Below, in pieces: positions 25,978 to 31,887 of a stretch of 64,000 nt of DNA (position 1 is its first letter; every line of letters starts with the position of its first letter). The DNA comes from Bryobacteraceae bacterium (GTDB lineage Bacteria > Acidobacteriota > Terriglobia > Bryobacterales > Bryobacteraceae): NCBI GenBank assembly GCA_025055455.1, contig JANWXD010000014.1:1-64000 (forward strand), in the 5' to 3' direction. Position numbers and translations under genes: made by a program. The notes beneath the pieces are model-generated. The model did not search any database. It saw only the letters and a list, made by a program, of their open reading frames with translations, and was not told the DNA's origin.

Positions 25978-26754
25978 CTATCCGGTCGCCGGATCGCGCG
26001 CCGCGGCCAGCGCCTGCTCCACCAGCCGCTCCATCCGCCGGTAGTGCGAGCCGCCCCAATACACGCGACCGCAGCCCGGGCAGCGCCAGAATTCTCGGTA
26101 GTGCTCGCGGCTGCGCGGCGGCAAATGATCCCACACCTCTTCCTTCCGCGCTTCCTCCAGCAACTCATTGCAGCGCAGGCACCGCACAAACGGCTTGACC
26201 GCCCCCGCTAAGTCGAATCGCCGCAGCACCTCGACAAGCTGCGCCCGCGGCTGCGTCTGGCGCACATAGTAGCCGTGGGTCACCGCGCTGCGTTTGAGCA
26301 GCTCCCGGTCGCGCGTCAACAGAATGCGGCGCTGTTCGGAGGCGCACCGGGCAAGCTCGTCGTCGGTGGAGTCCCTCTCGTGCACCGTGTCAAATCCGAG
26401 CATCCGCAGATACGCCGCCAGCCGCCCGAGGTGGCCATCCAGCACGAAACGCGCCTGACGCAGAGGCTGCGGCCGCACGCGCGTCACGCCGGCAATGTCG
26501 AAGGCTTCGAAGACAGGGTAGACACTGATGCGGTCGCCCCCCTCGACCAGATAACCGAAGTCCACCGGTTCGCCGTTGGCCAGCACTAGGTCCACTTCCG
26601 TGTGCGGCACGCCCGCGGCTTCGATCAGGTGCTTGACGCTCTGCCGGCCGCTGAAGGAATATTCGAACTCCCGCATGCGGCGCTCGGGCGGCAGGAAATC
26701 GTTGAGCTCCGCGTAAAAGCGAAAGCGGGCGGTTTTCACCTCGGTTGCATTCAT
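25978..26754 (-). CDS. Mut7-C RNase domain protein with N-terminal ubiquitin-like domain
   Basis: 258 residues. Residues 1-95 form the Mut7-C ubiquitin/ThiS-like fold (ARFRFYAELNDFL, ANGEPVDFGYLVEGGDRI). The rest is a Mut7-C PIN-like nuclease domain (RFVLDGHLGRLAAYLRMLGF, DDELARCASEQRRILLTRDR with acidic catalytic candidates) ending in a zinc ribbon (VRCLRCNELL ... RCPGCGRVYW). Its start overlaps the stop of the upstream reductase/polyferredoxin gene (ATGA at 26754-26751), so expression is probably translationally coupled. Related proteins are predicted RNases; the substrate is unknown. Confidence 0.85.
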   Translation of the reverse strand: MNATEVKTARFRFYAELNDFLPPERRMREFEYSFSGRQSVKHLIEAAGVPHTEVDLVLANGEPVDFGYLVEGGDRISVYPVFEAFDIAGVTRVRPQPLRQARFVLDGHLGRLAAYLRMLGFDTVHERDSTDDELARCASEQRRILLTRDRELLKRSAVTHGYYVRQTQPRAQLVEVLRRFDLAGAVKPFVRCLRCNELLEEARKEEVWDHLPPRSREHYREFWRCPGCGRVYWGGSHYRRMERLVEQALAAARDPATG

Positions 26755-29051
26755 CGCGTCGAGACACCCGCACCAGCCGGGGCGATTTGGACCAGCGGCG
26801 TCGCGGGCTTCACCGATCCGAACGACAGCACCCCCATCGGGCACACGGTCACGCAGATGCCGCATCCGATGCAGGAGCTGTTGAGATTGTTCAGCTCCTC
26901 CTGCTTCAGGGCGAACCGCATCACGTCAATGCCTACTTGACAATAGCGTGTGCACTCGCCGCAGGCGATGCATTTCTCGTTGGCCTGAATCGCGAACCGG
27001 CTGATCCGAAGGCGCGTATAGAGGGCGCTCCAATATTCGATCAGCTTGGCGAGCGGGCACCAGTAGCGGCACCAGATCCGGCCTCCAAAAAACGGATACA
27101 GCGTCACGGGGAGGATTCCCACCAGCCAGAGGTCCGCAATCCAACGGTACGCGCTCACACCGAACTCGGCCGGAGCCCGGAGCCAGCCAATGGAATCCCG
27201 TAACACCATGGCCAGCGTGATGGCCGCCGCTGCCCAAAGCACCGCTTTGTTCATGGCTTCCAGCCGGATGCTGGTTCTGCCTTTGGGCGCCAGATGCCGC
27301 CATCGGTCGCCCAGCGTCTCGGCCAGCCCGCCACAGCCGCAGATCCAGGAACAATAGCGCTTGCCGTGGAATAACGCCAAGACGGGCAGCACCACGAAGC
27401 TCAAAAGCACGCCCCAGACGACCCAAATCTGATGCGGTGCGCCGAAAAACGTGTAGAAAAACAGCGGCCAGGCGTACACCAGGCCGTAGGCGCGCCAAGC
27501 TTCGCCGGCGAACTTGGGGTCGTTGGCCAGCCGCGCGCCGACCCACTCGTACTCCACCGCCCAGCGAAACAGAAACTCCGGGATCAGAAAGAAGAAGGTC
27601 CACTGAAACGCCAGCAGGCTCACGTAACGCCACGTCTGGAACTTGTCTTTCCGGTCCAGGCCCCACCGCTTCATGGCCTGGAGGCCGAACACCGTCATCA
27701 CCGCCGTGTAGAGCACCGTGTACCAGAACGCCCACGGGCGGTCGAGGAACGAAAGGGCGCGATACCCCCAGTCGCGGAACGGCCAGAGCTCGTGGCCCTC
27801 GCCGAGCTTGACGCCGTAAACGGTGTAGGCCACCACAAAGGAAACTCCCAGCCACGAGAATCGACTGCCCCGGAGCCCCGACCGGACGAGCGCAGCAACG
27901 GCGGCGAGCGCGGCAGCGCCGCCGAGCCACCCCAAACCAGCCAACATCGGAATCCCGGTCCGGGAGCCCAAGATCCAGAGTCCGAGGAATGTGACCGCCA
28001 CCAGCGCGAGCGTGAGTGCCGGGCTTCCCGTCCAGTCCGTCTCCAGACGCAGGCCCAGCGACCGCAGGAATCGCGCCGGGGGCTCGGCGCCGATCAGCAC
28101 AAAGGCGCGGTCGTACGGCACCTCGAGCGTTTCGACCCGGTCGCCGTGTTCCACTTCCAGCCGGCAACTGACCGCGCCGAACTCGCGCACCCTCGAGCGG
28201 TACAGCACGCGAATCCGTCCCTCCGAGACCGCCTGCTCGAGCTTTCGGGCAAGCTCCGGCAACAGGCGGTGGAAGGCCGCGCCACGATAAGACAAAGTCA
28301 CGCGGTTGTGTTCCGCCAGAGCCAGCGCGGCTTCCGCTGCGCTGTTGCCTCCGCCCACCACCAAGATCTCTTCGCCGCGGTACTCCCTGGGGCTGTAGAG
28401 CCGGTGGTGGACGTTCGAGCGGTCCTCTCCCGGAACACCGAGCCGCCGCGGGTTGCCGCGCTGGCCTGTGGCCAGGATCACACGCCGCGCCCGGTACTCG
28501 CCGCGCGGAGTGCGTACTCGGAAGCCCTGGACGCCGCCCCGCTCGATGGCCGTGACGCCCTCTCGGACGCGCACGTCCAGGCGGTTTTCGCGGATGATCT
28601 CGTGCCAGCGCGCAAGCAGATCTTCCTTGCGCGCTCCCTCCAGCCAGAGCTTCCCTCGGGCTGGCCTTTCGGCCGGTTCCGCATAGACCCACTTGCCTTC
28701 GGGGAAGTCTTCGATCGTGCTGGCGACTTCGTTTTTCTCGAGCACGAGCACTCGCAGCCCTGCGTTGTGCAACGTGAGCGCGGCATTCAAGCCGGCCGCC
28801 CCCGCGCCCGCCACGATCACGTCGTAGACGCCGGGAGTTCGGGCGCGTGCGTCCGGCTGGGAGACGATGTGCGCCGCCACTTGATCGCCCTGCTCCATGG
28901 CGAGCTTCACGACGGGTGCGCCCGCCAGGTCTCCAATCACGTAAAGCCCCTTCACGTTGCTTTCGAAATGGCGGTCGAGCACCGGGCGCGGGGCAGGCGC
29001 GTCCGAACTGTCCCACAACTGCTTCCACCACCCCCGCAACCCTAAGTTCAT
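26751..29051 (-). CDS. FAD-dependent NAD(P)-binding reductase fused to membrane polyferredoxin
   Basis: 766 residues. Residues 72-335 form a thioredoxin-reductase-like flavoprotein with FAD motif VAGAGAAGLNAAL (80-92) and NAD(P) motif VVGGGNSAAEAAL (231-243), but no CxxC redox pair. The segment SNVKGLYVIGDLAGAP (31-46), which closes the FAD domain in TrxR/YpdA, is found before it, as in a circular permutation. Residues about 343-670 carry several membrane helices with NapH/CcoG-like Cys pairs (YCSWICGC 566-573; CRYWC 661-665), and the C-terminus has two 4Fe-4S sets, CIACGECTRYC (694-704) and CIGCGICVTVC (727-737). It probably moves NAD(P)H electrons to or across the membrane; the acceptor is unknown. 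The ATG at 29051 is chosen because the upstream frame is low-complexity. Confidence 0.85.
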   Translation of the reverse strand: MNLGLRGWWKQLWDSSDAPAPRPVLDRHFESNVKGLYVIGDLAGAPVVKLAMEQGDQVAAHIVSQPDARARTPGVYDVIVAGAGAAGLNAALTLHNAGLRVLVLEKNEVASTIEDFPEGKWVYAEPAERPARGKLWLEGARKEDLLARWHEIIRENRLDVRVREGVTAIERGGVQGFRVRTPRGEYRARRVILATGQRGNPRRLGVPGEDRSNVHHRLYSPREYRGEEILVVGGGNSAAEAALALAEHNRVTLSYRGAAFHRLLPELARKLEQAVSEGRIRVLYRSRVREFGAVSCRLEVEHGDRVETLEVPYDRAFVLIGAEPPARFLRSLGLRLETDWTGSPALTLALVAVTFLGLWILGSRTGIPMLAGLGWLGGAAALAAVAALVRSGLRGSRFSWLGVSFVVAYTVYGVKLGEGHELWPFRDWGYRALSFLDRPWAFWYTVLYTAVMTVFGLQAMKRWGLDRKDKFQTWRYVSLLAFQWTFFFLIPEFLFRWAVEYEWVGARLANDPKFAGEAWRAYGLVYAWPLFFYTFFGAPHQIWVVWGVLLSFVVLPVLALFHGKRYCSWICGCGGLAETLGDRWRHLAPKGRTSIRLEAMNKAVLWAAAAITLAMVLRDSIGWLRAPAEFGVSAYRWIADLWLVGILPVTLYPFFGGRIWCRYWCPLAKLIEYWSALYTRLRISRFAIQANEKCIACGECTRYCQVGIDVMRFALKQEELNNLNSSCIGCGICVTVCPMGVLSFGSVKPATPLVQIAPAGAGVSTR

Positions 29052-29192
29052 GGCGCGACTGGGATCCTGCCCTGGTCCCAGAATAGCCCATGGCTCGCCG
29101 CGGCCGTGAGAGACGCCCAAACTTCGGTGAGAACTCCGGCGGCCTCGGCGCACGTTTCTCATGGAGGCGCGTCCCCATTGTCCGGGTTGCGT

Positions 29193-29669
29193 GTGCCCCT
29201 TGCACGCGGCCGCTGGTGCTGGCGCGGGGGGGTTCTGCTGGCTTCCGCCGGCATGTTGCTCGCCGCCGAGTGGCGCGGCGGACGGGCAGATTACGTCGGC
29301 GGGACCAGCGAGGCCCTCCAGCCCGACACGGAGGGCCTCATCTACACCGCACACCCCGAATGGTTCTTGTTTCAGACCCGCAAGACCGTAATCCGCGTGC
29401 CTTACGAGCGCATCAACTTGCTCGAGTACGGACAAAACGTCAGCCGCCGTTATGCCCTGGCCATTCTGGTGTCGCCCCTGCTGTTGCTCAGCAAGAAGCG
29501 CACGCATTTCCTGACGGTGGGTTTTCAGGACGAATTCGGACGCCAGCAGGCCCTGGTGTTCCGGGTGGACAAGAAGGACGTGCGCGCGGTGCTGGCGGCG
29601 CTCGAGGCGCGCACTGGCCTCCGCGTGCAATACCAGGACGAGGAGGCGCGCAAGGCAGGCAAAGGATGA
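29193..29669 (+). CDS. Hypothetical exported or membrane-anchored protein
   Basis: About 158 residues. The GTG at 29193 gives an N-terminal signal-like segment (RGGVLLASAGMLLAAEW). The body contains a second hydrophobic stretch (YALAILVSPLLLLS) within a PH/GRAM-like beta pattern (FQTRKTVIRVPYERINLLEY, FLTVGFQDEFGRQQALVFRV). The start is uncertain because the frame is open back to 29106. Its stop overlaps the next gene's start (ATGA), so the two are coupled. No named family recognised. Confidence 0.65.
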   Translation: MPLARGRWCWRGGVLLASAGMLLAAEWRGGRADYVGGTSEALQPDTEGLIYTAHPEWFLFQTRKTVIRVPYERINLLEYGQNVSRRYALAILVSPLLLLSKKRTHFLTVGFQDEFGRQQALVFRVDKKDVRAVLAALEARTGLRVQYQDEEARKAGKG

Positions 29670-30265: not shown

Positions 30266-30313
30266 GAACTTAAGGTCCTAGAAAAATTTTTTCCGATTCG
30301 GGCCGCCTGGGAC

Positions 30314-30342
30314 TAGACAAACGGATGTGTTTGTCTTATAAT
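30314..30342 (+). promoter_or_regulatory. Near-consensus sigma70 promoter
   Basis: TAGACA (30314-30319), 17-bp spacer, perfect TATAAT (30337-30342). The predicted start near 30349 lies about 95 nt upstream of a strong intrinsic terminator, outlining a short transcription unit. Confidence 0.75.
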
Positions 30343-30348
30343 GAAGGC

Positions 30349-30446
30349 AACGCCATAGAGTAGCATCCCCGGCGACGAGGCCCAGCTCGTCGCCAGCCCC
30401 TCTGAGTGAAAGCCCCCGGGGGGCCCAGACCCCCGGGGGCTTTTTC
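30349..30446 (+). ncRNA. Candidate small RNA or transcription attenuator
   Basis: About 98 nt between the promoter at 30314 and the terminator at 30410. A first hairpin, GGCGACGAG (30371-30379) with CTCGTCGCC (30386-30394), has loop GCCCAG. The second hairpin is the terminator, whose loop is GCCCAGA, so both loops present the same hexamer. No open frame of note is inside. Because the Tat-exported dehydrogenase starts at 30550 on the same strand, this may instead be its attenuated leader: CCCCGG at 30367-30372 could pair with CCGGGG in the terminator's left arm. Confidence 0.5.
30410..30446 (+). terminator. Strong intrinsic terminator
   Basis: A perfect 13-bp GC-rich stem (30410-30422 with 30430-30442), 7-nt loop, and a run of T at 30441-30445. 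It closes the short RNA unit started by the promoter at 30314. Confidence 0.8.
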
Positions 30447-30549
30447 TGTGCGTGCCCTCGGCACTTGGTTTGACAACCCCGTCCGGGCTTCGTACGCTTG
30501 GGAGAAGCGAGCCCAGTCACTTGAGCTCGCCTCGCAGGGAGGTTTTCCA

Positions 30550-31887
30550 ATGTCGAATCGCAACCGTACGCGGCGCGAATTCCTCGCAACCAGCGCCTCG
30601 TTAACCGGCACGGCTGCCCTTGCCCAGACCGGACGCATCCTTGGTGCCAACGACCGGATCAACGTAGGGGTCATCGGCGTCGGGATCCGAGGCCTCGGCC
30701 TCGCGCGCACGATCCTGCACCGCGCCGAAATGAAGGGTGACGTGCGGCTGGCGGCCATCAGCGACATCTACGCCCGGCGCACGGAAGCCGCGCGCCAGGC
30801 AGCCCGTCTGGAGACCAAAGACGTCCACCGGGACTACCGCGACTTGCTAGCTCGCCCCGACGTGGACGCCGTCTTCATCGTGACGCCGGACCACTGGCAC
30901 GCCCGGATGGCGATCGAAGCTATGGACCGCGGCAAGGACGTGTACCTGGAAAAGCCCATGACCCTCACCATCGAGGAGGCCCGTCAAGTCGCCGAAAAAG
31001 TTCGGCAGACCGGCCGGGTGCTTCAAATCGGCAGCCAGCACCTTTCCGACAAGCGCTACCACCGGGCGCGGGAAGTCGTCGAAAAAGGCTGGATCGGCGA
31101 AGTGCTCTGGGCGCAGACCACGTATTCCCGCAACTCCGTCTGGGGCGAGTGGAACTACCGGGTTGACGAAGGCGTGACCGCCGAAGACGTGGGCTGGAAG
31201 GACTTCCTCGGACCGGCGCCCCAGCGCCCCTTCGACCCGGACCGCTACTTCCGCTGGCGCAAGTACTGGGATTACTCGGGAGGCATCGCCACCGATCTTT
31301 TCTTCCACCGCCTGGCACCGCTGCGCTTCATCATGGGCATCGAATTTCCCACGCGTGTGGCGGGTGCCGGCGGCATCTACGTCCACAAGGACCGCGAGGT
31401 GCCCGACACCTACGCCACCATCGTGGAGTACGCCAACAACTACTGCGTTATCAGCAGCTCGATGGCCAATGCCGCCGCCAACCGCTACCTCCAGACCGTA
31501 ATTTACGGCCACAAAGGCACCATCACCTTCGACGAGAACGTGGTCATCGTCGAGCCGGAATGGCAGTTCGAACGGGAGTTCGTCGAGAAAGCCGGCTCTT
31601 CCAAGGTCTACCTCGAGGTGCCGCCCCATAACCTCGACGCCGAGCACGTGGACAATTTCCTCACCTGCATGCGCACTCGCCAAAAGCCCATCTTCGACGC
31701 CGACTTCGGCTACAAAATCATGGCGGCGATCAAGCTCGGTGTCGACAGCTATCGCGAGGGGAAACTCATGCTCTGGGATCCGGAGCGCGAGCGGCTTCTC
31801 AGCCAAGCGCCGGCGCGGCCCAGCTACGCCGGGGACGGCAAAAACCGCGAGGAGCCCCGTCCACCCTTCGGATTCCGCCGCATCTGA
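30550..31887 (+). CDS. Tat-exported Gfo/Idh/MocA family oxidoreductase
   Basis: 445 residues. A twin-arginine signal (TRREFLATSASLTGTAAL) precedes a Rossmann domain (INVGVIGVGIRGLGLA), the EKP signature DVYLEKPMTLTIEEARQVA and the C-terminal domain with DYSGGIATDLFFHRLAPLRF. Tat export lets the enzyme leave the cytosol with NAD(P) already bound. Family members act on sugars and cyclitols, and such exported forms are abundant in Solibacter-type and planctomycete genomes. The ATG at 30550 has GGGAGG upstream; the preceding open frame overlaps the terminator hairpin and is not coding. Confidence 0.9.
   Translation: MSNRNRTRREFLATSASLTGTAALAQTGRILGANDRINVGVIGVGIRGLGLARTILHRAEMKGDVRLAAISDIYARRTEAARQAARLETKDVHRDYRDLLARPDVDAVFIVTPDHWHARMAIEAMDRGKDVYLEKPMTLTIEEARQVAEKVRQTGRVLQIGSQHLSDKRYHRAREVVEKGWIGEVLWAQTTYSRNSVWGEWNYRVDEGVTAEDVGWKDFLGPAPQRPFDPDRYFRWRKYWDYSGGIATDLFFHRLAPLRFIMGIEFPTRVAGAGGIYVHKDREVPDTYATIVEYANNYCVISSSMANAAANRYLQTVIYGHKGTITFDENVVIVEPEWQFEREFVEKAGSSKVYLEVPPHNLDAEHVDNFLTCMRTRQKPIFDADFGYKIMAAIKLGVDSYREGKLMLWDPERERLLSQAPARPSYAGDGKNREEPRPPFGFRRI

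Follow-up and report, generated by a model that had tools for sequence, protein, structure and literature searches.

A stretch of 64,000 nt from a Bryobacteraceae genome (GCA_025055455.1, contig JANWXD010000014.1, positions 1 to 64,000; hereafter the window) holds a compact unit of promoter, hairpin and intrinsic terminator upstream of a dehydrogenase gene at 30550, raising the question of whether this unit is a leader of that gene or a small RNA (sRNA) gene of its own, and to which RNA class it belongs. On the basis of sequence comparison, the window RNA appears to be an sRNA of the Acido-1 family (Rfam RF01686) with a conserved gene of its own, read from the plus strand, and we think that the strand of Acido-1 in Rfam is inverted, the entry describing the complementary strand. 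To our knowledge, acidobacterial sRNAs have been little studied. If the strand is inverted, a catalogued orphan RNA family needs its strand, length and promoters corrected, and as long as the catalogued strand is used, expression and target searches would be run on the complement of the RNA. Acidobacteria would then have, in the corrected family, an sRNA whose input can be read from the DNA (sigma-54 activator sites) and whose seeds can be tested.

Predicted transcript and hairpins

The promoter, 9-bp hairpin and intrinsic terminator described in the earlier note were confirmed by promoter scan and folding (Table 1). The hexamers TAGACA (30314-30319) and TATAAT (30337-30342), with a spacer of 17 nt, agree with 11 of 12 consensus positions on the plus strand, and a scan of 5 kb on both strands returned two promoter-like sites, this one among them, against 0.4 expected from shuffles. 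The start of the predicted transcript was inferred from the -10 box and its end placed in the T-run; between these lie the element GCAUCCCC and both hairpins. Folding of 30343-30456 gave a minimum free energy of -65.7 kcal/mol (z = -5.6), equalled in stability by none of 200 shuffles, with the terminator hairpin P3 formed by 15 pairs (30408-30444) and followed by TCTGT. A simple terminator scan did not report the P3 hairpin of the window, probably because the stem absorbs the Us. The motif GCCCAG, noted earlier in both loops, is present in this fold, and C-rich loops are kept in relatives; since structure and loops are conserved there, the unit is more than a chance arrangement. The statement that it contains no open frame was loosely right: the listed frames of at least 80 aa that overlap the unit lie on the minus strand or extend the downstream gene from a GTG start.

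Table 1. Positions and strands of predicted features around the sRNA locus in the window
Feature	Position	Strand	Basis
Sigma-70-type promoter, TAGACA-17-TATAAT	30314..30342	+	Promoter scan; promoter-like sites also 5' of relatives
Predicted sRNA transcript, ~98 nt, sense strand of the Acido-1 family	30349..30446	+	Ends inferred
Conserved GCATCCCC, C-rich patch 1, taken as single-stranded	30363..30370	+	Alignment A1
Hairpin P2, 9 bp, loop GCCCAG (C-rich patch 2)	30371..30394	+	Fold, compensatory changes, loop counts
Conserved linker AGCCCCTCTGAGT (also given as AGCCCCUCUGAGU), C-rich patch 3	30395..30407	+	Alignment A1
Predicted intrinsic terminator P3, loop GCCCAGA (C-rich patch 4) and T-run	30408..30445	+	Fold, compensatory changes, T-run counts
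Match to Rfam RF01686 Acido-1, 35.9 bits (gathering 50)	30371..30443	-	Rfam search, permissive thresholds
Promoter-like TTGACA-17-TACGCT, separate from the RNA, 5' of the Gfo/Idh/MocA-type dehydrogenase	30470..30498	+	Read from sequence, inference

Relatives and the strand of Acido-1

A BLAST search with 30310-30460 against 61 genomes (E <= 1e-4) found matches in 16 of the 37 same-family genomes, its own included, and in none of the 24 others, with the strong matches mostly spanning the transcript and not the promoter. Thirty-nine sense copies were aligned over the whole RNA (alignment A1), from which a filter had left out L008, L018, L038, L041, L069 and L113, among others; an early row set had kept 26 rows, one of them false (L035, plus strand). 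One invariant column of this alignment lies in the P2 loop (C44) and five in the linker (C62, T63, C64, G66 and A67). The earlier note had proposed looking for compensatory changes in both stems, and RNAalifold on the 39 copies gave 17 consensus pairs with such changes in 15. It had also proposed a covariance search of acidobacterial genomes, which found copies across the family and weak matches outside it. Our covariance model R1, built partly from copies that it later finds, matched the window at 30339-30452 (+) with 85.7 bits, and among 237 genomes of the window's family (Bryobacteraceae) it matched 105 at E <= 0.01 (98 at E <= 1e-11, seven marginal at E 0.002-0.008) and gave no match in 132; strong copies are missing from 139 of the 237. 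Among 396 genomes drawn from the phylum, 14 matched at E <= 0.01, namely the window's own and 13 others, and these 13 matches, at 20.6-28.8 bits, we take for chance. The top score was 19.1 bits in 24 same-order or same-class genomes, and 28.8 outside the family as a whole, compared to 85.7 for the window.

Carriers hold one to five copies, with at most five R1 matches per genome at E <= 0.01, and copies are often in tandem (42 of 124 loci have two to four copies, which within a locus all share one strand). Loci L271 and L268 (G255 C333 and G256 C85) are tandem groups of four sRNA copies whose starts lie 173-213 nt apart. The window's genome has a second copy at G000 C56:61014-61122 (L024, L349). 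Identical cores were counted once, or once per genome in the promoter-class count, and two weak R1 matches (L306:662 and L287:2105) were excluded from the neighbour, loop, tandem, promoter-class and equal-window counts.

At gathering thresholds Rfam reported two tRNAs only in the whole window, and the earlier note had recognized no RNA class. That view has to be given up, as the element is homologous to Acido-1 on the other strand: its sub-threshold match (Table 1) covers model positions 1-64 of 64, comprising two hairpins and the linker, and BLAST matches of the window in G035, G001, G020 and G036 (E 1.8e-8 to 1e-4) overlap Acido-1 matches above the cut-off. Acido-1 lay on the strand opposite to the RNA in six of six relatives tested (38.7-45 bits). 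The second copy in the window's genome gave no match at E <= 0.01 in one Acido-1 test, and was matched in the search of the 61 family genomes (E 0.00584, 27.3 bits). This search (E <= 0.01) yielded 40 matches in 24 genomes, 16 of them above the cut-off (61.6-85.8 bits, in 9 of the 61 genomes). Compared by eye, 39 of the 40 overlap R1 matches, all 39 antisense, and the fortieth (G009) was not matched by R1. It is because Acido-1 runs antisense to the promoter- and terminator-defined RNA in 39 of 40 matches that we think Rfam's strand is inverted.

The competing reading, that Acido-1 is functional as catalogued, with a minus-strand transcript and G-rich loops, has in its favour Rfam's own orientation, including the 16 matches above the cut-off (up to 85.8 bits), and an A-C mismatch in the first hairpin of classical copies that becomes G-U on the minus strand. 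An early count of wobble cells in 16 copies likewise ran against inversion (5 G-U vs 14 A-C, mostly at one position of classical copies). Over all pairs in 123 copies the cells number 59 G-U vs 55 A-C, with 52 of the 55 A-C cells in two pairs and 39 G-U vs 3 A-C in the remaining 15; wobble pairs do not decide the strand. Promoter-like sites and T-runs favour the plus strand of the window. In equal upstream windows of 97 nt, 103 of 159 copies have a promoter-like site (at least 9/12) on the R1 strand and 7 of the 159 have one on the other strand, compared to 41 of 795 shuffles, and at least five Ts within 10 nt past the last hairpin occur in 97 of 161 copies vs 0 of 161, some 35-40% of copies falling below the promoter or T-run thresholds. 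The 159 copies are those of 171 with both full windows. An earlier promoter count with unequal windows, which omitted 6 of 173 copies with cut flanks and still included the two weak matches, gave 107 of 167 vs 7 of 167, and the T-run count supersedes one of 51 of 75 vs 0 of 75 under a stricter stem filter. Moreover, the Acido-1 consensus begins with AAA, the complement of the T-run. We therefore regard a minus-strand function as very improbable. By title, a literature search for strand corrections returned none on Acido-1 among the matches listed. Acido-1 is listed as probably RNA, probably not cis-regulatory, from Acidobacteria (Weinberg 2010, PMC2864571), and is tabulated among the predictions for a Herbaspirillum strain (PMC6337395).

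Promoter classes and activator sites

From 87 genomes 174 copies were fetched, a subset of all copies in each genome, and at thresholds of 8/12 at fixed position the 168 with readable flanks divided into 94 sigma-70, 60 sigma-54 and 14 unclear copies. Counting fetched copies only, 12 genomes (the window's included) have both classes, 32 sigma-54 only and 41 sigma-70 only. The window copy belongs to the sigma-70 class and the second copy of its genome to the sigma-54 class, with the promoter TGGCACTCTACGTGCA and activator palindromes at -119 and -100. An AGTC...GACT 5' hairpin accompanies 58 of 60 sigma-54 copies vs 16 of 94 sigma-70 copies, and palindromes of the form TGSG-N8-CSCA lie upstream of sigma-54 copies. 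The activator matrix was derived from these same copies, and hence was cross-validated two-fold, trained on one half and scored on the other, after near-identical upstream regions had been merged to 47 sigma-54 (here defined by TGG plus score) and 65 sigma-70 regions. Held-out sites of at least 10 bits were found in 44 of the 47 sigma-54 regions, with two sites in 21, against 2 of 130 scorings of the 65 sigma-70 regions (two folds) and 25 of 940 shuffles. With the threshold at 8 bits, the two sites of a pair are 17-22 or 30-32 nt apart in 27 of 30 cases, close to two and three turns of the helix. From its sequence layout, this arrangement is the putative enhancer of a sigma-54 activator. A search for a GAFTGA-like plus Walker-type pattern, run without a positive control, found no activator gene in the window or in the 12-20 kb around each of 20 sigma-54 copies.

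In the window's genome TGGCAY-N6-TGCW has 22 matches, fewer than the 51 for a reversed control, and most of the 22 are therefore chance. Three, those of the sRNA copy, of a 4Fe-4S/molybdopterin-oxidoreductase operon and of citrate synthase, are preceded by an activator-like site of at least 8 bits. Citrate synthase was dropped as a regulon member, as none of the 24 readable related loci (of 26) conserves the sites. At L360 (G000 C145:9826), a sigma-54-like site and an activator palindrome of 17.7 bits precede genes identified by eye as a 4Fe-4S subunit and a molybdopterin oxidoreductase, a possible co-regulated operon. Separately, a histidine-kinase-like gene (named by eye at L289) is the upstream neighbour, on the other strand, at L289, L291 and L312, and could belong to an activating two-component system.

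Proposed action, alternatives and known systems

The candidate sRNA gene of the earlier note is supported by conservation, structure and strand evidence from relatives, and the conservation of its repeated C-rich loops is borne out by 167 folded copies, in which 160 P2 loops and 155 P3 (terminator) loops contain CCC while the stems vary. The commonest P2 loops are TCCCCT (55), GCCCAG (46) and ACCCAG (44); GGG occurs in the P2 or P3 loop of none of the 167, and the common P2 and P3 loops are C-rich and free of GGA. An ATCC-like motif stands at C-rich patch 1 in 158 of 167 copies. There are thus four C-rich patches, AUCCCC, the P2 loop, the linker CCCCUCUGAGUG and the terminator loop. Both siblings in the window's genome are predicted to carry them in a near-identical core, in which a 5' part is followed by AUCCCC, a CCC-loop hairpin, CCCCUCUGAGUG and a CCC-loop terminator hairpin. 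Most likely, the patches would provide the RNA with repeated antisense seeds for G-rich translation-initiation regions, and several mRNAs paired in this way would be blocked or destabilised, possibly with Hfq as a partner. Co-occurrence was uninformative on dependence on Hfq or CsrA, both being widespread (Hfq above its cut-off in 60 of 61 family genomes, CsrA in 47 of 61). The two promoter classes may let one RNA activity respond to more than one signal, one class giving a basal supply and the other a supply induced by a putative sigma-54 activator, the latter input apparently marked by the dedicated 5' hairpin and by activator sites that are often paired. On balance we lean towards the window element being a stand-alone, trans-acting sRNA of the Acido-1 family, the plus-strand sigma-70 sibling with C-rich antisense seeds. 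The wider proposal, that Acido-1 is on the wrong strand and comprises sibling sRNAs with housekeeping and sigma-54/activator inputs, forming a C-rich multi-site antisense module on G-rich ribosome-binding regions, we consider evenly balanced.

An attenuator or riboswitch-like leader of the Gfo/Idh/MocA dehydrogenase, which the earlier note had entertained, would fit the terminator lying ~100 nt upstream of that gene in the same direction, and of the 115 loci with a downstream ORF two others, L302 and L305, also have a related dehydrogenase in the nearest position. Nevertheless, in 72 of these 115 loci the ORF nearest downstream runs on the opposite strand, and neighbour clustering of 124 loci gave a largest downstream cluster of 7, with no constant downstream gene. 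The window copy shares its upstream gene with five others; going by names assigned by eye, the dehydrogenase follows in the window only and other proteins follow in those five. Such variable flanking genes speak against a leader. The dehydrogenase gene also has a promoter-like site of its own (Table 1), which is not in the promoter-scan list, where 4/6 is required in each hexamer, and classical Acido-1 copies do not conserve the CCCCGG that was proposed as a partner of the terminator arm. The leader was thus rejected on synteny, L302 and L305 notwithstanding, and we give it almost no credence. Other neighbours identified by eye include a PilZ-like gene (upstream of the RNA in 8 loci), an LptD-like gene (downstream in 7) and an adenylate-kinase-like gene (upstream in 9); three loci have both the PilZ-like and the LptD-like gene, and the copies next to these two genes are mostly of the classical Acido-1 type. 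Within the window, 26751-29630 (-) is a long frame that by eye resembles a fusion of a pyridine-nucleotide-disulfide oxidoreductase with a membrane polyferredoxin bearing 4Fe-4S motifs.

The presence of several copies at separate loci of one genome could also mark a dispersed palindromic repeat or mobile element without a function of its own; covarying stems, an invariant linker, a promoter-like site and T-run kept in most copies, and the ceiling of five matches per genome (E <= 0.01) make this scarcely believable. The main rival, which we hold to be unlikely though well above the others in weight, is a protein-binding sponge, in which an RNA-binding protein occupies the repeated CCC loops and patches in several copies and differently driven siblings tune its free level. 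The CsrB/RsmZ RNAs bind their protein in this way by GGA hairpin loops, and CCC-bearing P2 and P3 loops on variable stems, as well as one to five copies per genome in tandem groups, are in keeping with a sponge. Against this, sequestration of a bacterial protein by CCC loops is not known to us, GGG is absent from the P2 and P3 loops, and the linker CCCCUCUGAGUG is kept well beyond CCC, as expected of an antisense seed.

In the preferred sRNA reading, comparison is the basis for the conservation, the structure, the strand and the promoter classes, and the pairing with G-rich initiation regions is proposed by analogy. Compared to Acido-1 as catalogued, with which it shares two hairpins and the linker (ACUCAGAGGG on Rfam's strand, CCCUCUGAGU here) and an occurrence in Acidobacteria, the RNA described here would lie on the opposite strand, with promoters, a 5' part, a 3' hairpin interpreted as a terminator and a sigma-54 class with activator sites, and its window-type members fall under Rfam's cut-off. 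In Vibrio, activation of the Qrr sRNAs depends on LuxO, which is sigma-54 dependent. The Qrr sRNAs resemble the present family as siblings switched on by one response regulator (PMC4211561); here, sigma-70 and sigma-54 siblings coexist in 12 of 87 genomes, and homology is not claimed. The CcsR1-4 RNAs of Rhodobacter are likewise clustered homologous sRNAs, which are processed from one ccaF1-CcsR precursor (PMC10253847), whereas the tandem copies here mostly have promoter-like sites of their own. The nearest working analogue would be ar14/NfeR1 of alphaproteobacteria, described as tied to the cuckoo RNA family and as having three hairpins with the same anti-Shine-Dalgarno motif that silence mRNAs redundantly (PMC10746234). 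The P2 loops of Acido-1-family copies do not contain the ar14/cuckoo hairpin-loop motif CCUCCUCCC, having mostly CCCAG or CCCCU instead, and the likeness is one of layout without a claim of homology: several hairpins, each with the same C-rich motif unpaired on variable stems (PMC10746234), through which the predicted acidobacterial sRNA may act on its targets much as ar14/NfeR1 does.
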